This document shows positions 2,504 through 54,960 of a stretch of 64,000 nt of DNA, in pieces (the first letter of the stretch is position 1; each line of letters starts with the position of its first letter). Position numbers and translations under genes: made by a program. Under the pieces are notes generated by a model. That model had not been told where the DNA came from. It ran no database searches and saw only the letters and a list, made by a program, of their open reading frames with translations. The DNA is from Myxococcota bacterium (GTDB lineage Bacteria; Myxococcota; B64-G9), in assembly GCA_022710975.1 (NCBI GenBank), contig JAKLGA010000001.1, positions 186,001 to 250,000 of the forward strand, written 5' to 3'.

Positions 2504-2540
2504 AAAACCTCAATCGCCCACAGGGTGATTGAGGTTTTTT
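2504..2540 (+). terminator. Rho-independent terminator of tRNA-Gly
   Basis: AAAACCTCAATC pairs with GATTGAGGTTTT, and the stem continues inward through CGCCC/GGGTG to a 3-base loop (ACA at 2520-2522). It ends in a run of eight T. This is one of the clearest terminators in the window and lies 16 bases before the tamB start codon. Confidence 0.92.
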
Positions 2541-2555
2541 TTGTCGGGTGGGCTC

Positions 2556-6506: not shown

Positions 6507-6507
6507 G

Positions 6508-18938: not shown

Positions 18939-18973
18939 TTGGCATGCGGCCAGAGAAAACCAAGGAGGCCGCC

Positions 18974-20257
18974 ATGAACCGCTTTGTCCTGGTCGTCGGA
19001 ATCCTCGTGCTGGCCCTCATCCCCATTCAGGCCTTCGGGCAGGCCCCGGGCGAGTGCACGGGGGGCCTGTGCGGCACGCCCGACGAGTCGGGCGGCGGCG
19101 GCTGCGGCTGCGGGTGCGGCTGCGGCAGCATCCTGATCGCCAACACGGACCTCGGCGACACCTACCAGTACGCGGACGACTACGACGAGGACGGCTACGA
19201 GGACGACTTCGACAACTGCCCGTTCTCCGCCAACCGCGACCAGGTGGACGGCGACGGCGACGGCATCGGCACCGCCTGCGACAACTGCCCGCAGGACGCC
19301 AACGACACCCAGCTCGACACCGACGGCAACATGCTGGGCGACGCGTGCGACCCGGACATCGACGGCGACGCCATCGACAACGCCCTGGACAACTGCCTGC
19401 AGGTGAAGAACCCGGCCCAGCTCAACGTGGACGGGGACGCGCTGGGCGACTCCTGCGACCCGGACATCGACGGCGACGGCTGGCAGAACCTCGAGGACAA
19501 CTGCCCGTTCGTGTCGAACCCCCAGCAGAACGTCATGGACCCGGGCACGGTCTGCAACCCGGACGACGACCTGGACACCGTGGGCAACGCCATCGACAAC
19601 TGCGCCACCCTGGCGAACCCGGATCAGCTCGACACCGACGGCGACGACCTGGGCGACCTGTGCGACGCGGACATGGACGACGACGGCATCACGAACGCGC
19701 TCGACACCTGCCCGGTGATGCCCAACCCGGACCAGAGCGATGACGACCGCGACGGCACCGGCAACCTGTGCGACCCGACCTTCTGCTTCGTGGTGGACGA
19801 GCTGGGCTCCTGCCTGGATCCCAGCAGCACCTTCAGCGTGTACACCGGCGCGGACCGCGCGGTCAGCACCGGCGAGACCGTGCCCCTGCTGTTCTGGGCC
19901 AACCGCGTGAACCGCGGCATCTCCTACGAGTGGAGCGTGGTCGAGCGGCCCTCGGGCTCCAGCGCCACGGTGCGCCACCCGCGCGGCACCGTGACCCTGT
20001 CCACGCCCTACCAGTACCACTACAAGGCCGGGCGGATGGTGGAGTTCATGCCGGACCAGCCGGGCACCTACACCCTGAAGCTGAGCGCCCAGCTCGTGTT
20101 CGACGACGATCTGTACCCTGGCAAGCGCCTGGACGAGCACGTCATGACCCTGACCGCCGAGGGCGACCCGGTCGGCAGCGGCTGCGCGACCGGCGGCGGC
20201 GCGGGCTCCCTGGCCCTGCTGCTCCTGGGCGCGGCGCTGGCGCTGCGACGCCGCTGA
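18974..20257 (+). CDS. TSP3-repeat surface protein with MYXO-CTERM tail (copy 1)
   Basis: 427 residues: Sec signal peptide (RFVLVVGILVLALIPIQAFG), a Cys-Gly run (CGCGCGCG), then seven or so thrombospondin type 3 calcium-binding units rich in DxDxDGxxD and spaced Cys (about residues 60-275). A beta-sandwich-like region follows (about 280-400). The tail GSGCATGGGAG plus a hydrophobic helix plus RRR is a MYXO-CTERM sorting signal, which sends proteins to the cell surface in myxobacteria. ATG 18974 has AAGGAGG just upstream. It is almost identical to the gene at 39804-41090. The preceding gene is an FHA-sigma54 activator. Confidence 0.9.
   Translation: MNRFVLVVGILVLALIPIQAFGQAPGECTGGLCGTPDESGGGGCGCGCGCGSILIANTDLGDTYQYADDYDEDGYEDDFDNCPFSANRDQVDGDGDGIGTACDNCPQDANDTQLDTDGNMLGDACDPDIDGDAIDNALDNCLQVKNPAQLNVDGDALGDSCDPDIDGDGWQNLEDNCPFVSNPQQNVMDPGTVCNPDDDLDTVGNAIDNCATLANPDQLDTDGDDLGDLCDADMDDDGITNALDTCPVMPNPDQSDDDRDGTGNLCDPTFCFVVDELGSCLDPSSTFSVYTGADRAVSTGETVPLLFWANRVNRGISYEWSVVERPSGSSATVRHPRGTVTLSTPYQYHYKAGRMVEFMPDQPGTYTLKLSAQLVFDDDLYPGKRLDEHVMTLTAEGDPVGSGCATGGGAGSLALLLLGAALALRRR
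19115..19969 (+). repeat. 855-base direct repeat, copy 1
   Basis: Every base from 19115 to 19969 is the same as in 39948-40802 (offset 20,833). It covers the TSP3 units and the start of the next domain. Just beyond it the copies differ at many bases over about 90 bases, then match again from 20057 with few changes up to about 20229. Confidence 0.95.
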
Positions 20258-20476: not shown

Positions 20477-22327
20477 ATGGCGGGATACATGCGCGCTGCC
20501 TTGGTCCTGGTCGGGCTGACCGTGCTGGTGGCCGCCGCGGCCTGCACCGAGAGCGACGTCGAGGTCAAGGAGACCTTCAACGTCCCGCAGGTGGACGACC
20601 AGCTCGCCATCCAGGGGGAGGTGTGCACCATCCCCACCGGTGACGGGGAGGACTTTCCGGTCAAGATCATGTTCGTGGTGGACTGCTCGGGCAGCATGCA
20701 GCAGACCGACGAGGGCCACCGCCGCTCCGAGGCCGTGCAGCAGGTGGTGCGCCGGTACGCGGCCAACCCCAACGTGTTCTTCAGCGTGATCAAGTTCAAC
20801 GGCCGCGTGGCCAAGCTCACCGGCGACTCCTTCGTGCGCCTGACCGGCGACGAGGACACGGTGTTCGGGCCCCAGGGCCTGCAGGAAGCCGACTCGATGA
20901 CCGACTACCAGGGCGCCCTGGGCGTGGCATACCAGGTGCTGCTCAACGACATGACCCAGACCTCGCTGACCGATCTGACCCGCACCAAGTACGTGATGAT
21001 CTTCTTCTCGGACGGCACGCCCGATCCGGTCTGCTACGGCTGCGTGACCGATCCGCCCAACCACCCCCGCTACCGGCCGCTGTGCGAGCAGTACGACCCC
21101 TCCACCTACTGCTGCAACGAGGATCTGCACGTGGTATGCACCACCATGGACACGGTCGTGCTGAACATGGACATGCGGACCGAGGATCTCTTCCCCATGC
21201 TGGAGGGCGGGGCCGACTACAACCACAACTACCAGATCTTCCAGCTGGTGGACGCGATCATGGACCTCAAGGAGACCTTCCACGTGGGGGACCTGCGGCT
21301 GCACAGCGCCTTCCTGTATTGCCGCGACCAGTTCGGCAACCCCACCTCGGCCCTGTGCGCCGCGGCCGAGCTGGCCTACAACCTGGACCCTGACCGCGGG
21401 CGCGCGCTGCTGCGGGAGATCGCCCGGCGCGGGCAGGGGACGTTCCGCGACTTCACCTCGGGCCAGGCCATCGACTTCCTGAGCATCGACTACACCTCGA
21501 TCAAGCGCACCTACGGGGCGAAGAACCTGCTGGTGACCAACCGCAACGCCTTCCCGGCCAGCGTCCGCTACCTGCCCGACTCCGACGGCGACGGGCTGGA
21601 CGACGACAACGAGCTCAGGCTGGGGACCGATCCGCTGGTGGCCGACAAGGACGCCGACGGCTACGGCGACTTCACCGAGGTGGCCCTGCAGGCGGCCGGC
21701 TTCGACCCGCTGCGGGCCGATCGGCCGGAGACGGCCTGCGCCTATCCGTACGAGGACGCCGACGGCGACGGCCTGATGCGCTGCGAGGAGGCGCTGTACG
21801 AGACCGACGACAAGATGGTGGACACCGATCTGGACGGTTTCCCCGACCTCAGCGAGGTGCGCCTGGGGACCGACCCGCTGCGCGACGACACCTCCGAGGA
21901 TCCGGACTCGGACGGCAAGCGCAACATGGACGAGTTGCTGTACCACTCGCACCCGCTGCGCTCGGACCCCGATCTCTTCCGCGAGCACCGCTACTGGTAT
22001 GACATGGCCGACGGCCCCAGCTCGACCGAGGCGCGCCCGTGCTACGCCTTCGACATCAAGTACGTCAGCCTGGTGACCACGCTCGACCGCGATGGCCCGG
22101 CCAGCCGCGGCTACAACGACATCCTGATCTGGTTCAACCAGGCCTCCTTCGACAACCCCATGGACCCGGGCATCTTCCGGGTGGCCTGCGTGCGGGCCCA
22201 GTACATCGCGCCCGACTACAAGATCCCGTTCCAGGGCAAGCTCCAGCTGACCGACGCGGACTTCGTCGAGCCGACCATGCTCGACCTCGGCTTCCTCAAC
22301 TCGAGCTGCGTCTCGGCCAGCCAGTGA
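20477..22327 (+). CDS. Von Willebrand A lipoprotein with TSP3-like repeats (VWA 1)
   Basis: A 616-residue lipoprotein (lipobox VAAAAC, Cys23). A VWA domain spans about 65-350, with MIDAS motif DCSGSM near residue 70. TSP3-like Asp-rich units (SDGDGLDDDNELRLGTDP) cover about 370-475. The last ~95 residues form a module shared with two neighbouring VWA proteins (YNDILIWFNQASFDNP, then RVACVRAQYI). It is probably on the outer membrane, binding a metal-coordinated partner. ATG 20477 has GGGAGGTGG upstream. The earlier in-frame start codons lie before the predicted promoter and are rejected. Confidence 0.85.
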   Translation: MAGYMRAALVLVGLTVLVAAAACTESDVEVKETFNVPQVDDQLAIQGEVCTIPTGDGEDFPVKIMFVVDCSGSMQQTDEGHRRSEAVQQVVRRYAANPNVFFSVIKFNGRVAKLTGDSFVRLTGDEDTVFGPQGLQEADSMTDYQGALGVAYQVLLNDMTQTSLTDLTRTKYVMIFFSDGTPDPVCYGCVTDPPNHPRYRPLCEQYDPSTYCCNEDLHVVCTTMDTVVLNMDMRTEDLFPMLEGGADYNHNYQIFQLVDAIMDLKETFHVGDLRLHSAFLYCRDQFGNPTSALCAAAELAYNLDPDRGRALLREIARRGQGTFRDFTSGQAIDFLSIDYTSIKRTYGAKNLLVTNRNAFPASVRYLPDSDGDGLDDDNELRLGTDPLVADKDADGYGDFTEVALQAAGFDPLRADRPETACAYPYEDADGDGLMRCEEALYETDDKMVDTDLDGFPDLSEVRLGTDPLRDDTSEDPDSDGKRNMDELLYHSHPLRSDPDLFREHRYWYDMADGPSSTEARPCYAFDIKYVSLVTTLDRDGPASRGYNDILIWFNQASFDNPMDPGIFRVACVRAQYIAPDYKIPFQGKLQLTDADFVEPTMLDLGFLNSSCVSASQ

Positions 22328-22349
22328 GCGCGCCACCGGAGGTGTCCCC

Positions 22350-25300
22350 TTGAGCACGCAAGCCTCTCGCCTCCTGCCCTGTGCGGCCTGGGCGCTCCTG
22401 CTGACCCTGCTGGCGCCGGGCTGCACGGACACGGAGATCTTCGAGATCCCGTCCGTGGGCTCGGGCCAGCACGACAACAAGCTCCGGGTCCGGGGCTCGT
22501 TCTGCACCGAGCACCCCGACGAGCTGCTCTTCCCGGTCAAGATCATGTTCGTGATCGACTGCTCGCAGAGCATGAACGTGACCGACCCGCCGCCGTCGCC
22601 CACCGAGTACCCGGGCCGGGTGCGCGCGGTGTGGGAGGTGGTCCAGAAGTTCCGCAACGATCCGGGCGTGGAGTTCGCCGTCGTGCGTTTCGAGGCCGCG
22701 GCCAACGTGGCCACCCAGCGCGACACCAACAATGACGGCGTGGCCGACATGTTCGGCTTCGTCAACGATCTGCCCACCCTGCTGCGGGCGCTGAACTCGC
22801 TGCAGGCCGCCGGCGGCAACACCAGCTACCAGGCGGCGCTCGGGCTGGCCGAGGCCACCCTGGCCATGGACATGGCCAACACGAACGTGGACGAGCGCTC
22901 GCGGGCCAAGTACGTGGTGATCTTCCTGTCCGACGGCCTGCCCTACCCGGTGGACTACCAGATGGGCACCAACACGCCGGCCAGCATCCGGCGGGCGGTG
23001 CGGGAGATGATGAACCTGGCCGACCGTTTCGAGGTCGGCGAGCTCACCGTGCACACCGCCTTCCTGGCGGTCGACACCCCGGCGTTCATCCAGGCCCAGG
23101 CCGAGTCGCTGCTCAGCGGCATGGCCGAGGACGGCGGCGGCACCTTCCGCAACTTCGACAACGGCGAGCAGATCAACTTCCTGGACATCGACTTCACCTC
23201 GGTCAAGCGCATGTACGCCATGAAGGACGGGGCCTTCCTGGTGGCCAACGAGAGCGCCAACCCGGCCTGGGACCCGAGCGAGGGCATCGACACGGACGGC
23301 GACGGGCTGGTCGATCAGCTCGAGGTGGACCTCGGCGCGGACGTGGGCCTGCGCGACACGGACGGCGACGGGTTCAACGACTACCTCGAGTACACCCTGC
23401 GCCGCTCGGGCTTCGATCCGCTCGACCCCGACGACGCCGACTGCCAGCTGGTCCTCGACCGGCTGGACAACGACGGCGACGCGCTGCTCAACTGCGAGGA
23501 GCGCTTCCTGGGCACCAGCCCGGATCTGTTCGACTCGGACGCGGACGGCCTGCCCGATCCGCTCGAGGTGCGCGCCGGCACCAACCCCGTCTACCTCGAC
23601 GGGGAGGTGGATCAGGACTACGACGGCACGCAGAACTCCAGCGAGGTGGCCTGGCACACGAACCCCTCCTACAACGACGCGGCCCAGTTCTCCAAGCTGG
23701 CCTACCGCTACGAGCTGGGCCGGGTGCCCGGGGTGTACGAGAGCCGCCTGTGCTACGACTTCGACGTGCAGAACATCACCCTGGTGGGCACCGAGCCCCG
23801 CGTGGCGGGAGAGCCCCGGGGCTACAACGACATCATGGTCTACGCCGGGCAGGTGCCCAACGACGACCCGGAGGACAACGGCACCTGGCGGGTGGCCTGC
23901 GCCCGCGTGCGCTACGTCCCGCGCTACCCGGAGGACGACATCAAGATCCCGGCCAGCGGCCGGGTGACCTTCGAGCAGCGCGACTTCAAGCGGCCGGTGG
24001 CCCGCGCCTGCGGCTCCGACGAGGAGTGCCCGCACCACGTGTGCGAGCCCGAGACGCACGTGTGCCTGGCGCCGCTCGGCGATCGCTGTGACGCGCAGAC
24101 CCCCTGCGGCAGCTTCGCCTGCGTGCCCGACGACATGACCGGACAGGGCTACTGCGCCTCGCCGGTGGCCGTCTCCTGCCTGGAGGCCGGGGACTGCCCG
24201 CCCTACCCCGCGCACCCGCAGACCGGGCTGTGCATGGACCCGGCCGGCTCGCCGCTGGATCCCGTGAGCGGCCAGTGCCCGCGGCGAGAGTGCATCCCCC
24301 AGTACCCCACCTGCCAGGCCGCCAGCGACTGCCTGGCCGACGGGGACACCGAGCCGAACAACGACCCCGTGTGCCTGCTGGGCCTCTGCCGCGTCCCCTG
24401 CCAGGACGCCACCGGCTGCAACCCGGGCGAGACCTGCGACGCAGACGGGGAGGCCGAGCTGGGCGCGTGCGCCACGGCGGCCGACTGCGCCCAGCCGGGC
24501 GACGGCTGCGTGAACGGCGTGTGCCGGCGGGCCTGCGTGACCAGCGCCGACTGCGCCTCCCCGCTGGACTCCTGCGTGGCGGACGCCTGCGTCAGCCGGC
24601 ACTGCGCCGATCACCACGGCGGCTCCTGCGCCCTCGTGCCCTGCGCCGCGGACGCCGACTGCCCCCAGATGCCATGCGATCCCGAGGTGGGCCGTTGCCG
24701 GACCCTGGCCTGCCTGGACTCGCGTGACTGCCCGCACCAGGACTGCGAGCTGGTGGTGGGCTTCTGCATGGGCACCACCTGCGAGGACGACGCCGACTGC
24801 CGCGGGGAGCGCGGCTTCAGCTGCAACCCGGTGGCGGGCGAGCCGTGCGTGCGTGACCTGGACTGCCCCTTCGACTACTGCACGCAGAAGGTCTTCCGCT
24901 GCGCCATGGGACCGGGTGGGGCGCGCGAGGACTGCGTGCTGAGCGCGGACTGCCCGACCAACACCTGCGACGTGGCCGCCGGGCGCTGCACCCTGGAGGA
25001 CCGGGACTGCGCCAGCGATCTGCAGTGCACCCCGAACATGTGCAACGCCTTCACCGTGTGCTCCAACGATCCGAGCATCGGCTGCACCATGTCGATCGAC
25101 TGCCCGCAGACCTTCTGCCGCACCGACGGCACGTGCCTGAACGACCCCGCCCGGACCTGCGATCCGACCCAGCGCTACGAGGACAGCGCCTGCCAGGTCG
25201 GCATGTGCGCCCGCGACGAGGGTCTGGGCGCCTGCGACACGGCGGGGCGCGAGGCCTGCACCGAGGACAGCCAGTGCCCCCCCTACGCCTGCAACCCCAT

Positions 25301-25544
25301 CAGCGGCCTGTGCGAGGTGCCGGTGGACGTGGTCTGCCTGTCGACCGCCGAGTGCCCGGCGGGCATGGACTGCGTGGGCGGCAGCCCGCCCTCCACCTGG
25401 GGCAGGTGCCAGAAGTCCTGCAACGACGACGTCGACTGCCCGACCGCCAGTTGCCAGGGGCGCTGCCGCCCGATCGATCCCGGGGAGCGCCAGCGCTGCA
25501 CCGACTGGTTCGACCCCGAGCGGGACTGCTTGACCTTCGACTGA
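22350..25544 (+). CDS. Von Willebrand A lipoprotein with long Cys-rich tail (VWA 2)
   Basis: 1064 residues. Lipoprotein signal with LLAPGC (Cys25), VWA domain with MIDAS DCSQSM near residue 70, TSP3-like units (around 314-430), the shared C-terminal-type module (around 468-550; YNDIMVYAGQVPND, RVACARVRYV), then a Cys-rich tail of some 500 residues made of repeating units such as DCPxxxC and CxxxxxCxxxxxC. The start is TTG 22350, with a GGAGGTG ribosome site at 22338-22344. It follows VWA 1 by 22 bases. The Cys tail suggests a disulfide-linked stalk on the cell surface, which is inference. Confidence 0.85.
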   Translation: MSTQASRLLPCAAWALLLTLLAPGCTDTEIFEIPSVGSGQHDNKLRVRGSFCTEHPDELLFPVKIMFVIDCSQSMNVTDPPPSPTEYPGRVRAVWEVVQKFRNDPGVEFAVVRFEAAANVATQRDTNNDGVADMFGFVNDLPTLLRALNSLQAAGGNTSYQAALGLAEATLAMDMANTNVDERSRAKYVVIFLSDGLPYPVDYQMGTNTPASIRRAVREMMNLADRFEVGELTVHTAFLAVDTPAFIQAQAESLLSGMAEDGGGTFRNFDNGEQINFLDIDFTSVKRMYAMKDGAFLVANESANPAWDPSEGIDTDGDGLVDQLEVDLGADVGLRDTDGDGFNDYLEYTLRRSGFDPLDPDDADCQLVLDRLDNDGDALLNCEERFLGTSPDLFDSDADGLPDPLEVRAGTNPVYLDGEVDQDYDGTQNSSEVAWHTNPSYNDAAQFSKLAYRYELGRVPGVYESRLCYDFDVQNITLVGTEPRVAGEPRGYNDIMVYAGQVPNDDPEDNGTWRVACARVRYVPRYPEDDIKIPASGRVTFEQRDFKRPVARACGSDEECPHHVCEPETHVCLAPLGDRCDAQTPCGSFACVPDDMTGQGYCASPVAVSCLEAGDCPPYPAHPQTGLCMDPAGSPLDPVSGQCPRRECIPQYPTCQAASDCLADGDTEPNNDPVCLLGLCRVPCQDATGCNPGETCDADGEAELGACATAADCAQPGDGCVNGVCRRACVTSADCASPLDSCVADACVSRHCADHHGGSCALVPCAADADCPQMPCDPEVGRCRTLACLDSRDCPHQDCELVVGFCMGTTCEDDADCRGERGFSCNPVAGEPCVRDLDCPFDYCTQKVFRCAMGPGGAREDCVLSADCPTNTCDVAAGRCTLEDRDCASDLQCTPNMCNAFTVCSNDPSIGCTMSIDCPQTFCRTDGTCLNDPARTCDPTQRYEDSACQVGMCARDEGLGACDTAGREACTEDSQCPPYACNPISGLCEVPVDVVCLSTAECPAGMDCVGGSPPSTWGRCQKSCNDDVDCPTASCQGRCRPIDPGERQRCTDWFDPERDCLTFD

Positions 25545-25574
25545 GCCGCGCGTGCTCATCACGAGGAGAGGCGC

Positions 25575-27686
25575 ATGAGATTCGATGCGACGCATTGCCG
25601 GAACGCTTGGACGCTGGCGGCCCTGGCTGTCCTGGCCTGGAGCGCCGTCGGCTGCGGCGGGGGGAACGAGCAGGCCGACGCCGGGGACGGGGACGTGGAT
25701 CCGGGCACCTGCGTGGTGGACAACTCCCAGCCGCGCAGCGACGCCGATCCGAACTGGGAGCTCACGGCGGGCGGGGAGGACAAGGCCGGCCTGGTCTGCC
25801 CGCCCGGAGACACGGACTACTACTGGTTCGAGGTGGCCAGCGCGGGCACCATCCTGAGCGTCCAGCTCGCCAACAACGTGCCCATGTCCCCGGTGGATCT
25901 GTGCTACACCATCTTCCCCGCCGACGAGGGCGCCCCGGCCGTGGGCGGCCTGTGCGATCAGGACGGCATGGACGGCCAGACCGATCTGCGCGGGACGCAC
26001 TACCTCAGCCAGGCGGGGCTGTACTTCCTGGAGGTGCGCGACGGCTCGTCCGACGAGGAGGACGCGCGCAACACCTACCGCCTGAACATCGGCGAGATCG
26101 TGGACCCGGACACCTACGAGCCGAACAACACGGCCGCCTCGGCCAAGGCCCTGCAGGCCGGGGTGCCCGGCTACATCTCGTTCCTGGGCGACAAGGACTG
26201 GTACCGCGTGGAGGTCGGACAGCCCGGCCAGATCCTCAGCCTGAGCCTGACCGCCGCCCAGGCCGGCCCGGTCGATCTGCGCTACACCCTGTTCCGCCCG
26301 GACGGCACGACGGTCGTCAACACCAGCGCGGACCTCAACGGCATGGACGGGGCCACGCGGATCGAGGACATCCTGCCGGTGAACACGGCGGGCACCTACT
26401 ACCTGGTGATCTCCGACGACCTCGACGACGACTCGAGCCTGGAGGTCGGGTACACCCTGACGACCGCGCTCGAGCTCGACCCCGACACGCGTGACCGCAC
26501 CTCGCGCAACGACGACTACACCAGCGCCGTGCCCATCACCAGCGGCGGCGCGGTCACCCAGGGCTTCCTGGCCACCCGCGCGGACGAGGACTGGTACCGC
26601 CTCGAGGCCGCCGGGGTCAGCGACACGGCCCCGGCGCTGATCGAGGTGGAGCTGAACCTCGACCCCGCCAGCCCGGTGGACCCGGCCGTGGACCTCATCC
26701 TGGGCGACCCGCGCACGGCCTGCCAGGCCGGCGATCCGTGCGATCTGCTGTCCTCCTCCTGCGGCGGGGGCTGCGAGAACACCGCCTGCGCCAACGCCCA
26801 GTGCCCCTCCCACGAGTGCGTGCTCAACGAGAACCGCTGCCGGGGCGGCGGGTTCTGCCTGCCTGAGGGGCTGTGCGCCATCCGGCACCTGGTGCTGCAC
26901 GGCACGGACTGGAGCCCGAGCGGCGATCCACACGTGCTGCGCACCGTGGCGCCCATGTACGGCTCGGTCTACTACGTCGTGGTGCGCGACTTCCAGTCGG
27001 ACGACCTGGATCCCGACCGCGCCTACACCCTCACCGTGACCGTGCACCCCGAGCCGGACACCTACGAGCCCAACGGGGTGTACCTGCCCTACGCCACGAA
27101 CGAGCAGGAGGAGGAGGCGCGCAACGCCAACCCCGCCCGGTCCAGCCCGGTGACCTGCAGCGACGACGGCACCACCGTGACCTGCGGCCCGATCACCGGC
27201 TACCTGTCCTACCGCGGTGACCAGGACTGGTACGAGCTCGACTCCATCCCCGACCTGGCCGAGCTCACGCCGAACGCGCTGAGCACCAAGGTGGACTGGG
27301 ATCTCCGCTTCCAGTACGCCTTCGCCGGCCTGGCCTCCATGGAGGTGTACTACACCCTCTTCATGGGGAGCGGGGACGAGTCGGCCATGCGCTCCGGCAT
27401 GTGCGCCACGCCGGGTCCCTCGGCCCACGAGGGCGGCTGCTACACGAACTCGTCCTCCGGGACCATGGGCGAGAGCGACTGCTCCTACATCTGCGGCGAG
27501 TATCACGGCGGTCGGCCGGTGTACCTGCGGGTGATGCACTACGACCGCAAGCTGTACGACTTCCAGAACGCCTACACCGTCACCATCCGCGCCATCCGCG
27601 GGTGCCCGCAGACCTGCGAGTGGTGCCTGCCCACGACGGTGGACTACGCCTGCCCGAACCCGGGCAACCCGAACCCCGGAGGCTGA
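25575..27686 (+). CDS. PPC-domain-repeat lipoprotein
   Basis: A 703-residue lipoprotein (lipobox SAVGC, Cys27). It has four or so bacterial pre-peptidase C-terminal (PPC) type units, recognised by DPDTYEPNNTAASAKAL, GDKDWYRVEV and the later EPDTYEPNG and GDQDWYEL; a Cys-rich insert lies around residues 385-430. PPC domains usually accompany secreted peptidases, but no protease domain is seen here, so it is more likely a binding or structural protein. It has GAGGAGAGG before ATG 25575. It lies between VWA 2 and VWA 3. Confidence 0.82.
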   Translation: MRFDATHCRNAWTLAALAVLAWSAVGCGGGNEQADAGDGDVDPGTCVVDNSQPRSDADPNWELTAGGEDKAGLVCPPGDTDYYWFEVASAGTILSVQLANNVPMSPVDLCYTIFPADEGAPAVGGLCDQDGMDGQTDLRGTHYLSQAGLYFLEVRDGSSDEEDARNTYRLNIGEIVDPDTYEPNNTAASAKALQAGVPGYISFLGDKDWYRVEVGQPGQILSLSLTAAQAGPVDLRYTLFRPDGTTVVNTSADLNGMDGATRIEDILPVNTAGTYYLVISDDLDDDSSLEVGYTLTTALELDPDTRDRTSRNDDYTSAVPITSGGAVTQGFLATRADEDWYRLEAAGVSDTAPALIEVELNLDPASPVDPAVDLILGDPRTACQAGDPCDLLSSSCGGGCENTACANAQCPSHECVLNENRCRGGGFCLPEGLCAIRHLVLHGTDWSPSGDPHVLRTVAPMYGSVYYVVVRDFQSDDLDPDRAYTLTVTVHPEPDTYEPNGVYLPYATNEQEEEARNANPARSSPVTCSDDGTTVTCGPITGYLSYRGDQDWYELDSIPDLAELTPNALSTKVDWDLRFQYAFAGLASMEVYYTLFMGSGDESAMRSGMCATPGPSAHEGGCYTNSSSGTMGESDCSYICGEYHGGRPVYLRVMHYDRKLYDFQNAYTVTIRAIRGCPQTCEWCLPTTVDYACPNPGNPNPGG

Positions 27687-27698
27687 CGGAGGCCCCCC

Positions 27699-30383
27699 AT
27701 GCGCGCGCGCACCTCGACCTGGCTGCTGTGGCTCGCCGCCCTCGGGGCGGCCGGCTGCACGCAGTCGAACGTCTACTCGAACAACATCGAGCCCAACGTG
27801 CCCAACAAGATCACCATCTCGGGCACCGTGTGCACCGACGATCCCGCCGAGCGCCAGTTCCCGGTGCGGGTGATGTTCCTGGTGGACACCTCGGGCAGCA
27901 TGGGGGAGAACGACGCCGAGGCGCGCCGTCAGAGTGCGGTGCAGGCCATCGTCAACCGCTACGCCACCTCGCCCAACTACACCTTCGCCGTGGTCAAGTT
28001 CGCCGGCCAGGCGGTCCAGCTCACCGCGGATCCGCTCAGCCAGAGCGGGTACACCAAGAACCTGGCGGTGCTGAACGACGCCATCTACGAGCTGGCCTCG
28101 GTCGACCCGTGCGAGAATGGCTGCCGCGACTGGATCGGGGCGCTGTCGCTGGCCTCCAGCATCTTCACCGGAGACGTGCTGATCACCAACCCGGGCGCCC
28201 TGTCCCGGACCCGGTACGTGTTCATCTTCGTGGCCAACGGCCCCCCGGACCCGGGCCTGAGCGCCGGGGACCTCAACAACGACGGCGCCGTGGCCGCCGT
28301 CAAGGCGCAGCTCGTGGCCGCGGTGGAGGATCTGGCGGACTTCGGCCAGGACAAGGGCGCCGCCGAGGTGGCCTTCCACGCCATCCAGCTCGACAACATC
28401 CCGGGCATGTGCGCCGGCCTGCCGGCGGGTGACCCGCCGCGCTACTGCAGCTCGAACAAGCCCTGCCCGGCCAACTGCGCCGGCGGCGAGGCCTGCGAGG
28501 ACGCGGGGCTGCGCCGCTGCACCGACGACCTGAGCGTGGGCTGCGCGACCGACGCCGACTGCGCGGCCGGGCTGTGCCGCGTCACCCAGGTGTGCCTCAA
28601 CGACGCCACCCGCGTGTGCGTGCGCGACGAGACCTGTTGCCCGCGCTACGCCTGCAACGAGCCGCGCCAGCTCGAGAACGAGCGCACCGCCGAGCTGCTG
28701 CAGGCCACGGCCTTCGCCGGCCGCGGCGAGAGCGTGCGTTTCACCACCGGGCCGGAGCTCAACCTGGAGGTCGTCGACCTGGACACGACCCAGGGCGTGT
28801 TCGTCAAGAAGGCCCTGGTGGTGGCCAACACCAACGTGCGCACCCTGTGCGGCGAGGTCGAGGCGGACAGCGACGCGGACGGGCTGAGCGATCTGGAGGA
28901 GGCCTGCTACGCCGAGGTGCTGAGCCGCCGCTGCGACGATCTGCGGCGTTGCGACTGCGTGTCCGAGCCCTGGGACAAGGTGAGCGGCCTCGGCTCCGAC
29001 ACCGACCCGACCAAGGCCGACACCGACGGGGACGGCCTGGGCGATCTGCTGGAGATGCTGTTCGCCACCGTCGACCTGGACCCGCTGCGGGTCGACGTGC
29101 CCCAGGCCTGCCTGGAGCTCGAGCGGCCCTACAAGGACCTGGACTCCGACGGGTTGAACGACTGCGAGGAGCAGGTGCTGGGCACCGACCGCAGCTTGTT
29201 CGACAGCGATCGCGATGGCTACCCGGACGTGCTCGAGTTCCGCGCCGGCGCGAACTACCTGCGGGCGGACAACCTGCACGACAGCGACATGGACGGGCTG
29301 AAGAACGGCCGGGAGCTCGAGGAGCACCTGGACCCGCAGTGCAACGACACCACGGCCCGCTCCGGCGGCTCCTACCGCTACGATCTGGTGGACGAGGGGC
29401 TGAAGACGCTGCCCTTCATCAGCCAGCCGCGGGCGGTGACCGGCGTGAAGGCCACCGACGTGTCCCCGCGCTCTCCGGCCGGCGCCGGCAAGCTGTTCTT
29501 CTACCCGGCCGGCACCAGCCGGGCGGACGGCGGGCTGCGGGACGTGCCCGCGCTGGCCTGGGCCTTCCCGGCGGACGCGCAGATCGGTCCGGAGGTGCCG
29601 CTGACCGGCAGCGGCGACTACGTGCTGTTCGCCGCCTGCGCCTGCGTGCAGGACTGCCCGGCCGGCTGCGCGCCGGGCGAGTGGTGCAACCCGAACACCG
29701 GCGGCTGCGAGCCGGACGCCTGCGCGGGCAAGAGCTGCACCTCCACGGAGACCTGCGATCCGACCGAGGGGCGCTGCATCGTGGACTGCCAGCGGGCCGA
29801 CTGCCCCGTGGGCGAGCGCTGCGACCCGCTGCTCGGCCGCTGCCTGACCGATCGCTGCCTGAGCCTGGACTGCTCCGGCGGCCTGGAGTGCGATCCCGAG
29901 TCCGGCGTGTGCTCGGCCCCGCCTTGCGCCTCGTGGTCCTGCCCCGCCGGCCGGCGCGTGGACCCCTCGCAGAAGCCGGTCTGGATCACCGTGCGCGTGG
30001 ACGCCGCGCTGCTGCCCCAGTCGGGTTGTTTCTGCGACGGTTCGGACGCCATGGAGCCCTGCGTGAGCGACGCCACCTGCCCCATCAACTCGGTCTGCCG
30101 CCTGCGCGAGGCGCTGGTGGTGGGCGTGGCGCAGAAGAACTGCATCTCCTTCAAGGTCAAGAACGTCACCCTGGTGGAGACCCTGGAGACCCAGCCCGGC
30201 TTAGGCGCGGGCTTCAACAACATCTTCATCTACTTCGCCCAGACGCCGCTGGACAACCCCTACGCCTTCTCCATCTTCCGGGTTGCGCTGGTGCAGATGC
30301 GGTACTACAAAGGCGTGAAGGAGCCCAACTGGTCGGAGGCGCCGCTGTCCGACGCCGACTTCTTCCCCATCGAAGAGAAGTGA
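27699..30383 (+). CDS. Von Willebrand A lipoprotein (VWA 3)
   Basis: 894 residues, lipobox GAAGC (Cys20). VWA domain with the most canonical MIDAS of the three (DTSGSMG, near residue 62), a Cys-rich insert (about 230-325), TSP3-like units (about 388-548), a second Cys-rich block (about 645-755) and the shared C-terminal module (about 818-894; FNNIFIYFAQTPLDNP, FRVALVQMRYY). The ATG at 27699 is preceded by ACGGAGG. It is the third paralogue of the group and has the same set of parts in a different order of Cys inserts. Confidence 0.85.
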   Translation: MRARTSTWLLWLAALGAAGCTQSNVYSNNIEPNVPNKITISGTVCTDDPAERQFPVRVMFLVDTSGSMGENDAEARRQSAVQAIVNRYATSPNYTFAVVKFAGQAVQLTADPLSQSGYTKNLAVLNDAIYELASVDPCENGCRDWIGALSLASSIFTGDVLITNPGALSRTRYVFIFVANGPPDPGLSAGDLNNDGAVAAVKAQLVAAVEDLADFGQDKGAAEVAFHAIQLDNIPGMCAGLPAGDPPRYCSSNKPCPANCAGGEACEDAGLRRCTDDLSVGCATDADCAAGLCRVTQVCLNDATRVCVRDETCCPRYACNEPRQLENERTAELLQATAFAGRGESVRFTTGPELNLEVVDLDTTQGVFVKKALVVANTNVRTLCGEVEADSDADGLSDLEEACYAEVLSRRCDDLRRCDCVSEPWDKVSGLGSDTDPTKADTDGDGLGDLLEMLFATVDLDPLRVDVPQACLELERPYKDLDSDGLNDCEEQVLGTDRSLFDSDRDGYPDVLEFRAGANYLRADNLHDSDMDGLKNGRELEEHLDPQCNDTTARSGGSYRYDLVDEGLKTLPFISQPRAVTGVKATDVSPRSPAGAGKLFFYPAGTSRADGGLRDVPALAWAFPADAQIGPEVPLTGSGDYVLFAACACVQDCPAGCAPGEWCNPNTGGCEPDACAGKSCTSTETCDPTEGRCIVDCQRADCPVGERCDPLLGRCLTDRCLSLDCSGGLECDPESGVCSAPPCASWSCPAGRRVDPSQKPVWITVRVDAALLPQSGCFCDGSDAMEPCVSDATCPINSVCRLREALVVGVAQKNCISFKVKNVTLVETLETQPGLGAGFNNIFIYFAQTPLDNPYAFSIFRVALVQMRYYKGVKEPNWSEAPLSDADFFPIEEK

Positions 30384-34257: not shown

Positions 34258-34278
34258 TACACTCCCCCGCCACGAGTC

Positions 34279-39476: not shown

Positions 39477-39803
39477 ACCCGGCCCCCCATGCCGTACCCG
39501 TCTGGGGTGCCACGCCCCCCACGCTCCTAACATGAAGAAAAGAAATGGATTTGTTGATGGACGGGAGATGGGGAGGGCCATGCGCAGCCCAATCCGCCCC
39601 CTGCGTGGGGTGTCCGCCCCCCACCGCCCTCACGACCCGTACCCCTGCCGGTTCCTCGGTTTTATCCCAACTACTCTTTAAGAAAGATTTTTTCTTCCTT
39701 CCCGGAGCTCGACCCAGGTTTGGCCCGGTCCTCGCAGGGTTCCCTGGCCGAGAACCGAGGAACCAAGGTCCAAACTGTCATACGAACCGAAAGGAGCCCT
39801 GTC
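39477..39803 (+). other. Intergenic region (327 bases)
   Basis: There is no credible gene here. It holds two small GC hairpins (39504-39518 and 39605-39624) without T-tracts, an A/T-rich stretch near 39670-39700 and the sigma54 promoter candidate listed separately. Base composition is visibly lower in GC than the neighbours. Confidence 0.6.
39721..39736 (+). promoter_or_regulatory. Candidate sigma54 (-24/-12) promoter of TSP3 protein 2
   Basis: TGGCCC, five bases, TCGCA: GG and GC are 10 bases apart, matching the sigma54 consensus TGGCAC-N5-TTGCA at nine of eleven defined positions. It lies 68 bases before the ATG and corresponds in role to the site at 18923. Confidence 0.6.
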
Positions 39804-41090
39804 ATGAAGAAGAACCTCTTGATCGCGGTGCTGGCGGTGGCGGCGCTGGTCCTGGCGGGCCCGGCCATGGCCCAGGATGATGCGGCCCCCGGCGAGTGCA
39901 CGGGTGGCCTGTGCGGCACGCCCGACGAGTCCGGCGGCGGCTGCGGCTGCGGCTGCGGCAGCATCCTGATCGCCAACACGGACCTCGGCGACACCTACCA
40001 GTACGCGGACGACTACGACGAGGACGGCTACGAGGACGACTTCGACAACTGCCCGTTCTCCGCCAACCGCGACCAGGTGGACGGCGACGGCGACGGCATC
40101 GGCACCGCCTGCGACAACTGCCCGCAGGACGCCAACGACACCCAGCTCGACACCGACGGCAACATGCTGGGCGACGCGTGCGACCCGGACATCGACGGCG
40201 ACGCCATCGACAACGCCCTGGACAACTGCCTGCAGGTGAAGAACCCGGCCCAGCTCAACGTGGACGGGGACGCGCTGGGCGACTCCTGCGACCCGGACAT
40301 CGACGGCGACGGCTGGCAGAACCTCGAGGACAACTGCCCGTTCGTGTCGAACCCCCAGCAGAACGTCATGGACCCGGGCACGGTCTGCAACCCGGACGAC
40401 GACCTGGACACCGTGGGCAACGCCATCGACAACTGCGCCACCCTGGCGAACCCGGATCAGCTCGACACCGACGGCGACGACCTGGGCGACCTGTGCGACG
40501 CGGACATGGACGACGACGGCATCACGAACGCGCTCGACACCTGCCCGGTGATGCCCAACCCGGACCAGAGCGATGACGACCGCGACGGCACCGGCAACCT
40601 GTGCGACCCGACCTTCTGCTTCGTGGTGGACGAGCTGGGCTCCTGCCTGGATCCCAGCAGCACCTTCAGCGTGTACACCGGCGCGGACCGCGCGGTCAGC
40701 ACCGGCGAGACCGTGCCCCTGCTGTTCTGGGCCAACCGCGTGAACCGCGGCATCTCCTACGAGTGGAGCGTGGTCGAGCGGCCCTCGGGCTCCAGCGCCA
40801 CGATCCGTCACCCCCGCGGCACGGTCAGCCTGTCGACGCCCTACCAGTACCACTACAAGGCCGACCGCATGGTGGAGTTCTCCCCGGATCAGCCGGGCAC
40901 CTACACCCTGAAGCTGAGCGCCCAGCTCGTGTTCGACGACGACGTGTACCCTGGCAAGCGCCTGGACGACCACGTCATGACCCTGACCGCCGAGGGCGAC
41001 CCGGTCGGCAGCGGCTGCGCGACCGGCGGCGGCGCGGGCTCCCTGGCCCTGCTGCTCCTGGGTGCGGCCCTGCTCCTCCGCAGGAAGTAA
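39804..41090 (+). CDS. TSP3-repeat surface protein with MYXO-CTERM tail (copy 2)
   Basis: 428 residues; the paralogue of 18974-20257. The signal peptide differs (KKNLLIAVLAVAALVLAGPAMAQ) while the TSP3 part is base-for-base identical. It has a shorter Cys-Gly run (CGCGCGS) and a few amino-acid changes near residues 330-375. The tail GSGCATGGGAG, hydrophobic helix and RRK again fits MYXO-CTERM sorting to the surface. ATG 39804 is preceded by AAGGAG. Two nearly identical genes with unlike signal peptides and promoters suggest that the mature protein is kept the same by gene conversion. Confidence 0.9.
   Translation: MKKNLLIAVLAVAALVLAGPAMAQDDAAPGECTGGLCGTPDESGGGCGCGCGSILIANTDLGDTYQYADDYDEDGYEDDFDNCPFSANRDQVDGDGDGIGTACDNCPQDANDTQLDTDGNMLGDACDPDIDGDAIDNALDNCLQVKNPAQLNVDGDALGDSCDPDIDGDGWQNLEDNCPFVSNPQQNVMDPGTVCNPDDDLDTVGNAIDNCATLANPDQLDTDGDDLGDLCDADMDDDGITNALDTCPVMPNPDQSDDDRDGTGNLCDPTFCFVVDELGSCLDPSSTFSVYTGADRAVSTGETVPLLFWANRVNRGISYEWSVVERPSGSSATIRHPRGTVSLSTPYQYHYKADRMVEFSPDQPGTYTLKLSAQLVFDDDVYPGKRLDDHVMTLTAEGDPVGSGCATGGGAGSLALLLLGAALLLRRK
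39948..40802 (+). repeat. 855-base direct repeat, copy 2
   Basis: Identical to 19115-19969 on the same strand. See copy 1 for details. Confidence 0.95.
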
Positions 41091-41786: not shown

Positions 41787-41838
41787 ACCAGACCGATGCG
41801 CAACCCCGATCGACTCGACTTCCCCCATGGAGGGTTCG

Positions 41839-42546
41839 ATGCACCCCGAGCGTGCTGATCGCGGCCGGTGGTGTCTGTGGCTCGGTCTGACTGCCGTGGT
41901 GTTGCTGGCGGCGGTCCCGCTGCGGGCCGAGACCACCGAGGAAGGTCTGGACCAGGGTCGGGTGTACGCCATCCAGGATCGGGCGTTCCGCATGAACCAC
42001 GAGTTCGGCCTGTCGCTCGGGTTCCTGCCGCTGGACGCCTTCTACAAGATGTTCTCGATCGGTGGCCACTACGTGGTCCACTTCGACGAGATGTGGGCCT
42101 GGGAGGCGGTGCACCTGACCTACAGCAAGTACCTGGACGTGGACACGGGGCTGCGCAGCGAGCTGGCCGACCGCTGGGACGCGAGCCCCACCGATCCGGA
42201 GGAGAACCGGATCGACTTCGCGCTGGACACCAACCTCATGTGGAAGCCGCTGTACGGCAAGTCCACCCTGCTCGGGGACACGGTCATCTTCGGCGAGACC
42301 TACCTGCTGCTCGGCATCGGCACGGAGAAGTTCGAGACCGCCTGGTACCCGGCCATCAACCTCGGCCTGGGCATGCGCATCTTCCTGGGGGAGACCATCT
42401 CGATGCGCCTCGAGGTGCGCGAGTACATCCACTTCGGCGAGAGCACCGGCGGGACGCTGCTGTTCGCCCTGTCGTTCTGCTACAACGCCTTCGCCGAGGA
42501 TCTGCTGAAACCCGCCGCGCTGCCCGTCCAGGGGGTGACGCCATGA
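41839..42546 (+). CDS. Outer-membrane beta-barrel protein (GltA/GltB type, 1)
   Basis: 235 residues: signal peptide (LGLTAVVLLAAVPLRAE), then alternating amphipathic strands ending in an aromatic residue, as in outer-membrane barrels (LSLGFLPLDAFYKMFSIGGHYV and similar; each strand under 20 residues). It resembles the myxobacterial outer-membrane barrel proteins GltA/GltB of the gliding machine. The in-frame ATG 41827 is rejected because GGAGGG (41829-41834) is the ribosome site for ATG 41839. Its stop overlaps the next start (ATGA). Confidence 0.82.
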   Translation: MHPERADRGRWCLWLGLTAVVLLAAVPLRAETTEEGLDQGRVYAIQDRAFRMNHEFGLSLGFLPLDAFYKMFSIGGHYVVHFDEMWAWEAVHLTYSKYLDVDTGLRSELADRWDASPTDPEENRIDFALDTNLMWKPLYGKSTLLGDTVIFGETYLLLGIGTEKFETAWYPAINLGLGMRIFLGETISMRLEVREYIHFGESTGGTLLFALSFCYNAFAEDLLKPAALPVQGVTP

Positions 42547-43331: not shown

Positions 43332-43343
43332 GAGGGCCGGAGC

Positions 43344-44936
43344 ATGCGCGCGCGACTGTGGATCGGCGGAGCGGTGCTTGTGGCCGGGTGGCTGCTGGGC
43401 GCCCCGGGCTGGACCCTGGCCCAGGAGGGCGAGGGCGGGGGCGGCGACGGGGGCGGGCAGGGCGATGAGCCCACCGCGGAGCAGCCCGCGCCCGCGCCCG
43501 CCCCGGCTCCCAACCTGTCCGAGGAGGAGCTCAAGCAGCTCGAGGGGGCGGTGGAGCAGAAGGTCCAGGTGGGTCCGGAGGTGTTCGACGAAGGCGTCAA
43601 GCTGTTCTATGAGAAGAAGTACATCGGCGCCTCCCGGCGGCTGTGGGACTACATGGCCGGCAACGAGAAGGGCGCCGAGAACTACGGCTACGCGGAGTTC
43701 TTCCTGGCGCAGGCCTTCGAGAAGCTCGGCCTGACCCACGCGGCGGTCGAGTACTACTACAACGTGGCCAAGGACCGCACCAAGCCGGAGCTGCTGCCGG
43801 ACGCCCTGGTGGCGCTCGAGCGCATCACCCGCCGCTACCCCTTCGACCAGGACCTGGTGCTCAAGGACCTGCTCTACGACACCAACTTCGGTTACCTGCG
43901 CGAGGACCTGCGCGAGTTCATCCTGTTCTACCAGGGGCTGCTCGACTACCGCAGCGGGTTCGTGCGCTGGGGCCGCAACCACTTCGCCCAGCTCGACAAG
44001 GGCAGCTACTACTACTACAAGGCCGTGTACGTCGAGGCCGTCTACGAGCTGGTGCGCTACAACCTGGACAAGGCCCTGGAGATGTTCCGCGAGATCCTGG
44101 CGGCCAACGTCAAGCAGACCGACGTGATGAACAACGCCCGGCAGAGCGTGGCCCGCATCCTGTTCGAGCAGAAGAAGTACGCCGAGGCGTACGCCATGTA
44201 CGAGCAGATCGACGCGCCCATCGAGAAACAGGCCACCGTGTTCCTGGAGGAGGCCTGGGCCCAGTACTACATGCGCAACTACCAGCGCGCCATGGGCCTG
44301 CTCTACGCGCTCGAGGCGCCGGCCTTCTTCCGCTTCTTCGGGCCGGAGAAGTACATCCTCAAGTCGCTGATCTACAAGAACCTGTGCCACTACAACGTGG
44401 CCAAGGACGCGATCAGCGAGTTCCTGCAGGGCTACGGCGAGGCGGTGCGCGCGGTGTACGATCGGGTGGACCTGGACAAGAACCCGATCCTGCTCGACGC
44501 CGCGCTGCAGGACCCGATCATGGTGGAGCGGGGGAAGTTCCAGAGCCTGCTGGACACCGAGCTGAACAGCCTGGATCGCTTCGACTCCCAGTGGACCGAG
44601 AACGGCCTGATGGCGCACCTGCAGCGCATCTACGGGCTGAAGATCCAGGAGGTCAACCGGCTGCTCCAGGTGGGGCTGCAGGACTCCCTGCGCCGGGTGG
44701 CCGAACGCCTGCTGGAGTACGAGGAGCAGATGAACCTGCTCGAGTACGAGATCGGCCTGTCCATCTACAAGCGCCTCAAGGGCGCCCCCACGCAGAAGGA
44801 AGGCAAGGCCGAGGAGATCCCCTACTACGGGCTGCAGGCCTACTACGAGTTCGACGGTGAGTTCTGGAACGACGAGCTGCACGACTTCCGTTTCTTCATC
44901 GAAGACCGCTGCTTCAGCGAGGAGCGCTGGGAATGA
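43344..44936 (+). CDS. gltC: GltC-like periplasmic TPR protein
   Basis: 530 residues: a signal peptide (LVAGWLLGAPGWTLAQ), a Gly/Pro/Ala linker, then helical TPR-like repeats through residue ~480 (FDEGVKLFYEKKYIGASRRL, AQAFEKLGLTHAAVEYYY) and an acidic C-terminus. The order after two outer-membrane barrels is that of gltA/B-gltC in Myxococcus, so the GltC name is reasonable. It links the outer-membrane part to the periplasmic part of the gliding machine. ATG 43344 has AGGAGGGCCGG upstream. Confidence 0.75.
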   Translation: MRARLWIGGAVLVAGWLLGAPGWTLAQEGEGGGGDGGGQGDEPTAEQPAPAPAPAPNLSEEELKQLEGAVEQKVQVGPEVFDEGVKLFYEKKYIGASRRLWDYMAGNEKGAENYGYAEFFLAQAFEKLGLTHAAVEYYYNVAKDRTKPELLPDALVALERITRRYPFDQDLVLKDLLYDTNFGYLREDLREFILFYQGLLDYRSGFVRWGRNHFAQLDKGSYYYYKAVYVEAVYELVRYNLDKALEMFREILAANVKQTDVMNNARQSVARILFEQKKYAEAYAMYEQIDAPIEKQATVFLEEAWAQYYMRNYQRAMGLLYALEAPAFFRFFGPEKYILKSLIYKNLCHYNVAKDAISEFLQGYGEAVRAVYDRVDLDKNPILLDAALQDPIMVERGKFQSLLDTELNSLDRFDSQWTENGLMAHLQRIYGLKIQEVNRLLQVGLQDSLRRVAERLLEYEEQMNLLEYEIGLSIYKRLKGAPTQKEGKAEEIPYYGLQAYYEFDGEFWNDELHDFRFFIEDRCFSEERWE

Positions 44937-44962
44937 CAGCGTTCGCGCGAGGTGGGAACGCC

Positions 44963-47900: not shown

Positions 47901-48268
47901 AGGCGCTGGGCGACCTGGCCCGGGCCGCGCTGCAGGGCGGCGACCTGCACCTGGCGCGGCTCATCCTGTCCAAGGCGCTGGAGGTGGACGAGAACCACGC
48001 CGCCTCGCTCAACCTCATGGGCGTGGCCATGCAGAGCTTCGGCGACGACCAGGCGGCCTACGACTCCTACCGCAAGGCCTCCGAGCTGGACTCGCAGGGG
48101 CTGGCCCCGCGCCTCAACCTGGCCGGGCTGTTCATGAAGTACAAGGACGAGGCCCGCGCGCGGGCGGTGCTCAAGAACGTCCAGTCCCAGGCCAAGACGG
48201 CCGACCTGTCGGCCGCGGACTTCCACGCGGCCGCCAAGGACGCGCTGGCCGAGCTGCGCATCCGCTAG
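44963..48268 (+). CDS. gltD: Large periplasmic TPR protein (GltD/AgmU-like)
   Basis: 1101 residues from ATG 44963, with an N-terminal signal (MRTWTAAAGLVWMWTTL) and then some 20 TPR-type helical repeats, for example ALYILGDFNFNNDNLDGAEK and ARMFYDQGEYKQAIESFLEY. It matches the length range and build of AgmU/GltD, a periplasmic gliding component. ATG 44933 overlaps the upstream stop and gives 10 extra residues before the signal; I prefer 44963 but cannot exclude the other. It follows the GltC-like gene without a gap. Confidence 0.75.
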   Translation: MRVMRTWTAAAGLVWMWTTLSAFSLTDGAEEKAEFVDGLRRDIVKVDHSIEVTKDLIKKSKGAKFLPDIVFRLAELFVEKSRLVYYLEVETRGQEAASSAEAKLLKNEAINIYKDVMREFPDYKDNDKVLFFLGHEFNELGMHDEMIKTYEKLVEDYPKSSLLLEALYILGDFNFNNDNLDGAEKYYNRILEFREAPIHDMARYKLGWVAINRARVDKKFWKKALELFESVVTSENTREESMALDSARPVHIKAEALAGIVFCYTEVHGPKMALEYFRKLATSKQVYLQALERLANRYFIKENFDAAALIYRRIIDLSFDVEKNLDYAQRIYDASTFSKTKDKVDEDVQAIVKAASKYAYSWRIPDAEKAQLAKEFEVYARDIITKLHLLAQQRQEKRAFRLAAQAYKNYLSFFDYGEKLAEVKYNHAESLFNSDQNLPAGRAYEDIARTMEESKDRMDSLYSAISAYQKALGDIRYLSRFELVEARQGLKQLGAFFVAKYPKDEHTPTIKFNVARMFYDQGEYKQAIESFLEYIKQYPTHSEVAVAGHLVLDCYKQLEDYTGLATQGRAFVSDPAIKDDTFKKEVGEIVARAENRELDQKTLSVTKEGGDAVEELLKYAGTIQGEQAENALYRSFVMAKEKRSIEMAFKAGAQLAAQYKQSKFLQDVYATLGNFSAQMGDFERAAALYVDYFKRFPAQAEAREAMRAAANFYVFLGDHQQAVQTYKVLLEGASGDEHGLLLVDMADAYAKMDDWRMVLETAQKATGEVPGSVKGQLLLAKAQEKRGKLDDAKNSFMAAASSGGPDDTALSAEAQFRLADMLLDDFQKVRFGAGQDDNVVVQTKMQLIGQMEQFYAGVVEMKDPYWAIASLYRLSKAYEEFGAFLEGAPVPGELNAEQKKQYQAVIAEQAKAQRDQGKTYLEACKKFVQDKKVFGPFALACLTGTPPAREEVQRRRGGALDETRAEPLRARLLKNPNDLQALGDLARAALQGGDLHLARLILSKALEVDENHAASLNLMGVAMQSFGDDQAAYDSYRKASELDSQGLAPRLNLAGLFMKYKDEARARAVLKNVQSQAKTADLSAADFHAAAKDALAELRIR

Positions 48269-48297
48269 GGGCGCGCTCGTCACAACCGGGAGGAGCC

Positions 48298-54932: not shown

Positions 54933-54960
54933 CGGACCGGACGCCGAGGGAGTGAGCGCC

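Follow-up and report, generated by a model that had tools for sequence, protein, structure and literature searches.

MtsD-type VWA lipoproteins of Myxococcota form a paralogous trio with a shared C-terminal module and co-occur with a Glt-type gene cluster

Three genes for VWA lipoproteins lie close together in the window, i.e., the whole stretch of 64,000 nucleotides analyzed here, and these genes, their domains and the gene between the second and the third are all found on the + strand. P1 (20477..22327, in a reading frame open from 20315) comprises a VWA domain with a complete metal site (20666..21514, ends approximate; Pfam and metal-site check), TSP3-type units (21572..21985, ends approximate; Pfam and DxDxDG units) and a C-terminal module (22034..22267), which was delimited by a profile and modeled within the stretch 21968-22324 with a pLDDT of 90.3. 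Pfam, NCBIfam and a tree clade with Myxococcus MtsD place P1 in class a, the MtsD-type lipoproteins with the order VWA, TSP3, module. P2 (22350..25544), a lipoprotein of the same order assigned to class b by Pfam, NCBIfam, BLAST class and tree, has its profile-defined module at 23745..23990, followed by a Cys-rich tail (23991..25541; 517 amino acids, 75 Cys) without a Pfam or NCBIfam match. P3 (27699..30383; class c by Pfam, BLAST class and tree) is VWA-like with an incomplete metal site, and its sequence holds an extra, partly Cys-rich stretch (29391..30134) before the module (30135..30365; profile); about 255 residues separate TSP3 units from module. The stretch 29373-30380 of P3 matches no Pfam or NCBIfam family. 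Between b and c lies P4 (25575..27686), a PPC-domain protein (Pfam PPC, 35.9 bits) whose relatives follow b in many loci.

By eye, each of the three lipoproteins starts with a hydrophobic N-terminus followed by a lipobox-like Cys. Their VWA_2 scores (39.4 bits for P1, 40.9 for P2 and 33.8 for P3) all exceed the Pfam cut-off of 27, and they hold five, four and five DxDxDG-type units, respectively. The TSP3_bac profile (cut-off 25) scores above threshold in P1 (32.3 bits) and below it in P2 (20.2 bits), and is unlisted for P3. Open reading frames, VWA_2, DxDxDG units and module hence bear out the common architecture that an earlier sequence-only reading of this DNA had proposed, together with its Cys-rich tail of some 500 residues after the P2 module. 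The motifs by which it characterized the module in all three proteins are less general: RVAC-x-R-x-x-Y occurs in P1 and P2 but reads RVALVQMRY in P3, while the P-x-D/N-x-P turn occurs in P2 and P3 but not in P1, where S replaces the first P. The metal-binding site of the VWA fold (MIDAS: DxSxS, Thr and Asp in three loops) is complete in P1 and P2. In P3, two of the five residues are missing; DxSxS is kept, and R and N stand at the other two positions. The full-length model of mature P1 (pLDDT 84.7, pTM 0.78) has 50 PDB matches listed, mostly VWA-bearing proteins and including adhesins and receptors.

The module measures about 80 residues. A single-sequence search with the P2 module against its own genome returns the other two (E 1.4e-15 and 2.2e-7) and nothing else, and a profile built from the P1, P2 and P3 modules themselves finds the same three places only, all in the window. 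With this three-row profile, the module is found in 114 of 195 Myxococcota genomes and 51 of 90 genera, which answers the suggestion of the sequence-only reading to look for it in other myxobacteria. Rows more than 88% alike were removed (114 of 160 retained); in the aligned stretch, Cys25, Gly48 and Pro87 are invariant across 117 rows, and Asn50 is present in 98%. Structure prediction, which had likewise been suggested, yields a confident single beta-domain (AlphaFold2 with 117 rows; mean pLDDT 90.3, pTM 0.79) with five strands of at least three residues. Scanned singly against Pfam, the 117 members give no family in more than five members at an E-value of 1, the lowest single E being 0.001 for one row among the 117, and the best match to PDB sequences has an E of 0.13. 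Among the 13 PDB matches listed by Foldseek the best E is 4.2, VIA-align 2 finds zero of 34 chains with Z of at least 2, and the best E against BFVD viral folds is 0.88. The sequence-only reading did not recognize the domain and held that a clear match to a known one of known function would overturn its claim; the Pfam, PDB sequence and PDB fold searches produced none. A known domain was rejected on the basis of Pfam, NCBIfam beyond MtsD, PDB sequences and PDB and BFVD folds, and the module as modeled has no solved relative found in PDB sequences or folds or in BFVD. At 14 further loci (two class c genes, plus additional copies from five genomes), every module is found on the C-terminal side of its protein, which has three or more DxDxDG units, and other architectures are not seen among them.

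The neighborhood and the profile scores connect the three proteins to MtsD and MtsC. Directly upstream of P1 lies a gene for MtsC, with TSP3 repeats and a MYXO-CTERM-like end (18944..20257, +; NF047638 579.1 bits, Pfam TSP_3), and a second MtsC gene (39720..41090, +; NF047638 577.9 bits) is located upstream of a Glt-type cluster. Both pass the curated NF047638 cut-off of 350 bits, as does MtsC in 107 of the 195 Myxococcota genomes. Relatives in the family of the window have several MtsC copies as well. The MtsD model NF047639 (equivalog, cut-off 800) gives 260.4 bits for P1, 208.9 for P2 and 87.5 for P3; because these scores fall below the cut-off, none of the three is classed as MtsD itself. 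It covers residues 137-657 of P1 (whole-protein E 2.7e-77), has its best stretch at 250-550 in P2 (E 1.1e-61) and at 431-562 in P3, which is the TSP3 part (E 5.9e-25), and thus runs across the module in P1 and P2. P1 does fall within a broader MtsD-type family, as it has the order VWA, TSP3, module, MtsC upstream, and groups with Myxococcus MtsD. At locus L050 of the Myxococcus genome G136, MtsC is followed by a protein that scores 1351 bits as MtsD and bears the module; MtsD-family proteins and their paralogues hence have the module as their C-terminal domain. Judged by profiles and tree, P1 to P3 are of a known kind, namely MtsD-type lipoproteins, with P2 and P3 as paralogues b and c. CglD was considered and rejected (NF033765, cut-off 400: P1 38.3 and P3 27.6 bits, with the best stretches in the TSP3 part). 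At 4780-5580 of L043 / L073, an MtsD-type gene is open for 266 amino acids only while its tblastn match extends upstream, indicating a broken frame or an assembly error.

The mts locus is said to have been described by Zhang et al. in 2007 and named for cell-cell cohesion. Since the NCBIfam MtsD model (cell-cell cohesion) spans the module, the family has a reported role and the module none of its own. The cohesion role as used here rests on the NCBIfam names and a single sentence of PMC11980579, where the protein appears as MstC with a reference to Zhang et al. 2007.

Across Myxococcota, the three proteins recur as a set. Among 246 ORFs, a redundant collection in which a genome present both as a named and as an unnamed copy counts twice (as in the tail tallies), BLAST assigns 96 to class a, 89 to class b and 61 to class c. 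MtsD-type rows more than 85% alike were removed, which retained 41. A tree of 78 rows, midpoint-rooted for drawing, separates three paralogues, with SH-aLRT support of 96 for c (including three mislabelled rows) and 91 for a; class b forms two groups (100 and 98) whose branching order is unsettled. The BLAST class disagrees with the tree for L045_1122, L048_7915 (named copy L079_7915) and L063_7987, all of which fall in clade c. Wherever a named locus contains both a and b (56 of 56), b comes immediately after a, and MtsC lies at most 700 bp from a in 39 of the 44 named loci with enough upstream sequence. A larger profile detects exactly three module copies in 28 of 32 genomes, chosen among the module bearers and mostly one per genus, and 4, 5, 6 and 8 copies in the others. 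A contig scan with two VWA patterns gave 68 loci, 63 of them with a module ORF; L127 and L133 are truncated, and in L138-L140, which come from other phyla, the match is confined to the VWA part. As far as tree and gene order tell, a, b and c are three ancient paralogues that have been kept together. All 57 b rows and 62 of 63 a rows have a complete VWA metal site, against 0 of 41 for c (named loci and window, with exact duplicates and ORFs of at most 480 amino acids excluded, as for the identities below), the sole incomplete a row being L079_7915, which groups with c in the tree. An alignment-free regular expression broadly agrees (a 62/63, b 55/57, c 3/41). Pfam lists no VWA for the M. xanthus c protein, and the M. 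xanthus b protein scores 14.3 bits for VWA_2, far under the cut-off, yet its metal site is complete.

Class b proteins of L057, L058, L062 and the family of the window carry Cys-rich tails of 424-573 amino acids past the module, and those of other lineages end shortly after it. The Cys-rich tail of P2 is an extension limited to some lineages. Class c proteins of L159, L161 and L167 have additional sequence between TSP3 and module, as P3 does. L095 (BNCN01000002.1), titled Comamonas sp. KCTC 72670, is probably a mislabelled Myxococcus, as its a, b and c proteins match the M. xanthus references with 1298, 1139 and 1014 bits.

Downstream of the second MtsC, which heads it, a Glt-type cluster spans 41827-57339 on the + strand. 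It encodes an outer-membrane beta-barrel (41827..42546; TIGR04565 74.5 bits, cut-off 60), a GltC-like protein (43344..44936; NF033756 62.9 bits, cut-off 450), a TPR protein that we call GltD-like on account of its size, repeats and place (44933..48268; TPR families), a TolQ/ExbB-type protein (51993..52631; Pfam MotA_ExbB 77.4 bits, cut-off 22.9), a TolR/ExbD-type protein (54459..54932; Pfam ExbD 61.1 bits, cut-off 25.4) and a GltG-like FHA protein with an AgmX/PglI C-terminal domain (54880..57339 from the first start codon; NF033760 193.4 bits, cut-off 650; NF033768 115.8 bits, cut-off 40; Pfam FHA). The gliding Glt machine itself was rejected, as the GltG- and GltC-like proteins (193.4 versus 650 and 62.9 versus 450 bits) both fall short of its cut-offs. 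Because the scores are far under those of the gliding equivalogs, we regard the Glt-type genes of the window as paralogues of the gliding set.

The distributions of module and GltD-like gene nearly coincide. Both are present in 111 of the 195 genomes and both absent from 80; three have the module alone (G015, G016, G108) and one the GltD-like gene alone (G139), which amounts to a phi of 0.96. The GltD-like threshold of E at most 1e-60 was set after seeing a gap from 7e-67 to 4e-46, and since the search scored three candidates per genome, a miss is weaker evidence than a match. Tallies per genome for the module, the GltD-like gene, MtsC and tgl are full counts; the places of single matches are those among the matches listed. 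The S-motility gene tgl served as a control; it occurs in 172 of the 195 genomes and tracks the module poorly (phi 0.18), so S-motility was dismissed as a common cause of the distribution. Close relatives may differ in both features at once: in genus g34, two genomes have module and GltD-like gene and four have neither, and families f8, f12, f16 and f25 show similar contrasts. Of the 32 chosen genomes, 19 (eight families) have the GltD-like gene no more than 15 kb from a module gene; one has it 114 kb away, 11 carry it on a different contig, and in one it was not found. For comparison, tgl is within 15 kb in none of the 25 of these genomes with a listed place, the nearest being 30 kb away (G157). 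In named loci, 28 of 42 class c genes have a Glt-cluster gene in the available stretch, at 0.2-6.5 kb; of the 14 that do not, seven have less than 2.6 kb available downstream and the other seven have 4.8-6.8 kb upstream and at least 9.8 kb downstream. In G150, G182, G183 and G185, c lies apart from a and b and is the one near the GltD-like gene, whereas in G104 it is a and b, not c. As the genomes are related, none of these co-occurrence and linkage counts represents independent events.

In Myxococcus, the Glt-type cluster beside mts is probably the one termed G5, an identification by map position and by the number of tgl, which we take to be MXAN_3001: scaled by the place of tgl in G136, number 1327 falls near 1.59 Mb, and the GltD-like gene, at 1.56 Mb, fits MXAN_1327, the gltD homologue of G5. 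The available excerpts of Luciano et al. 2011 (PMC3169522) describe the M. xanthus Glt-like clusters G3 (nfs), G4 and G5, give MXAN_1327 as the gltD homologue of the latter and leave G4 and G5 without an assigned function at that time. In the same excerpts, which do not name cohesion, a polar mutant of MXAN_1327 shows unaffected motility; the legend gives twitching on soft agar as one of the assays. In G136, a search of the 40 kb preceding the cluster found neither a TolQ-like nor a TolR-like gene, so a motor would need another source there. According to PMC3858216, the Agl motor drives the paralogous Nfs complex too. In a predation transcriptome (PMC10196010), MXAN_1327 is upregulated and assigned to a Tad-like pilus; this label is doubtful if MXAN_1327 is the G5 gltD homologue.

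Domain profiles and structure models outline a rod-and-cap anatomy for P1 to P3: a lipid anchor, a VWA domain, a rod of TSP3 units of the calcium-binding type, and at its end a conserved small beta-domain predicted to cap it. Their families suggest that the proteins bind calcium and are exposed at the cell surface. The MtsD-type a and b, which keep the VWA metal site, may be the binding subunits, and c, which has lost it in every copy examined, may be a structural partner or adaptor. The module would then be a common docking or assembly cap that joins the three rods, perhaps with MtsC, into a cohesion complex; we consider such a cap the most likely function for it, rather than a variable ligand-binding head. 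The assembly-cap reading draws on the module being common to three paralogues, standing C-terminal of TSP3 and occurring in three copies in 28 of 32 genomes, and the cohesion complex on the MtsD model spanning VWA, TSP3 and module with an upstream MtsC that passes its cut-off. The a-b tandem, the closeness of MtsC to a, the metal-site split and the confident single-domain model also speak for this reading. The 4-8 module copies in four of the 32 genomes count against it, as do the scores of all three proteins under the MtsD equivalog cut-off. As a whole, a cell-cell cohesion complex of MtsD-type rods, with a and b binding, c as adaptor and the module as the joint, stands at about an even chance.

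Two other functions for the module deserve weighing against an assembly cap. It may be an adhesive head that the TSP3 rod holds off the membrane and that binds a protein or polysaccharide of a neighboring cell, with the VWA domain serving in assembly. The sequence-only reading leaned this way, proposing the module as a possible functional head, and in so far as the module is at the lipid-distal end and is a conserved single domain without a known match, this part stands. The remainder of the claim fares less well, as the module also caps class c with its lost metal site, is not terminal in P2, where the 517-residue tail comes after it, and does not clearly exceed the VWA domain in variability. 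Mean identities over all rows are alike for module and VWA (a 51.7 versus 52.1%, b 49.9 versus 50.3%, c 39.2 versus 43.8%) and do not bear out a fast-changing recognition head, though the module does run lower in the MtsD-type proteins of the family of the window (58.9 versus 72.4%; n = 8, one divergent second copy included), as a head under change might, which counts against the cap. The module is moreover kept in three paralogues of one locus, and a and b retain all residues of the VWA metal site, where this fold classically binds. An adhesive head is unlikely in our judgement. Still less probably, the module signals secretion or surface display to a component of the outer membrane, for instance the Glt-type barrel, and stands outside the working complex. 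That the module is the common C-terminal element of otherwise differing proteins, often encoded near a TIGR04565-type outer-membrane barrel gene, would suit such a signal, but a folded domain (pLDDT 90) retained on the mature protein would be an unusual one, and the module is far from the C-terminus in P2 and some b proteins of other lineages.

A separate question is how the proposed Mts complex relates to the Glt-type cluster. This envelope machine might load or move the complex, as the gliding Glt complex does with CglB, a VWA lipoprotein that it recruits or unmasks according to two reviews. By this analogy, together with the phi of 0.96 and the 19 of 32 genomes with linkage within 15 kb, the Glt step is a possibility that we rate somewhat short of even; the G136 cluster, beside which no TolQ- or TolR-like gene was found, counts against it. 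A stronger form, in which G5 is dedicated to the Mts lipoproteins and a TolQR-driven complex would load or move two rods with metal sites and one adaptor with a dead VWA, each with a cap whose fold has no known relatives, through the outer membrane, is tentative and, in our estimate, less likely than not. Independence of trio and cluster, with linkage and joint distribution reflecting inherited gene order and shared losses among related genomes, has a slightly better than even chance. It agrees with the lack of close linkage in 13 of the 32 genomes and with the 14 of 42 class c genes that have no Glt-like gene in the available stretch. The MXAN_1327 mutant without a motility effect, in assays that include twitching, also speaks for it: S-motility reportedly requires mts, and the two together argue against an obligate Glt link. 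Inherited order sits less easily with the joint presence or absence among close relatives (g34; f8, f12, f16 and f25), with the genomes in which c alone (n = 4), or a and b (G104), lie near the GltD-like gene, and with the second MtsC at the head of the cluster in the window.

Compared with Myxococcus MtsD and MtsC, the window shares an upstream MtsC that passes its cut-off, the reach of the MtsD model over VWA, TSP3 and module, and the grouping of P1 with MtsD; it differs in its scores (260, 209 and 88 bits versus a cut-off of 800), with P2 and P3 as paralogues b and c, in the long Cys-rich tail of P2 and in the large insert of P3. With CglB and the gliding Agl-Glt machine of M. xanthus, compared here by published description, where a Glt-type complex recruits a VWA surface lipoprotein, the window has in common VWA lipoproteins near Glt paralogues; it differs in having three such lipoproteins with TSP3 and module, and in Glt-like proteins far under the gliding cut-offs. 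The Glt paralogues Nfs (G3), G4 and G5 (PMC3169522, excerpts) likewise comprise GltG-, GltC-, barrel- and TPR-type genes, but the cluster of the window, unlike these, includes TolQ and TolR genes. Among PDB structures, the VWA adhesins and receptors PilB (7ba2), Mfa5 (6to1) and ITIH1 (6fpy) share the VWA fold of the full-length P1 model; the 50 matches listed were ranked on the whole model, and the module alone has no match there. In eukaryotic thrombospondins, TSP3 repeats are followed by a C-terminal beta-domain. P1 to P3 show the same succession, but their module has only about 80 residues, and no thrombospondin is among the 13 fold matches listed for it (all with E of at least 4.2).

Our literature search, with the founding mts paper of 2007 outside it, found no mechanism described for the mts genes, no fixed trio with one dead VWA (the founding paper may name b and c) and no tie of such a trio to an orphan Glt-type cluster. 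The near-identical distribution of Mts trio and Glt-type cluster offers each a testable partner, and two VWA domains with a metal site next to one without allow sharp mutant predictions. The module adds a small, confidently predicted domain, and the searches turned up no relative of it with a solved structure. If the Glt-driven reading is true, the orphan Glt paralogue G5 of myxobacteria would be part of an energized cell-cell adhesion machine that has so far gone unrecognized. Elsewhere in the window, at 2529-9567, a long protein that matches TamB weakly precedes a BamA/TamA-type protein, and 31858-36182, directly downstream of the mts genes, encodes a spermidine-synthase-like membrane protein, a Rieske protein and a cytochrome b protein.
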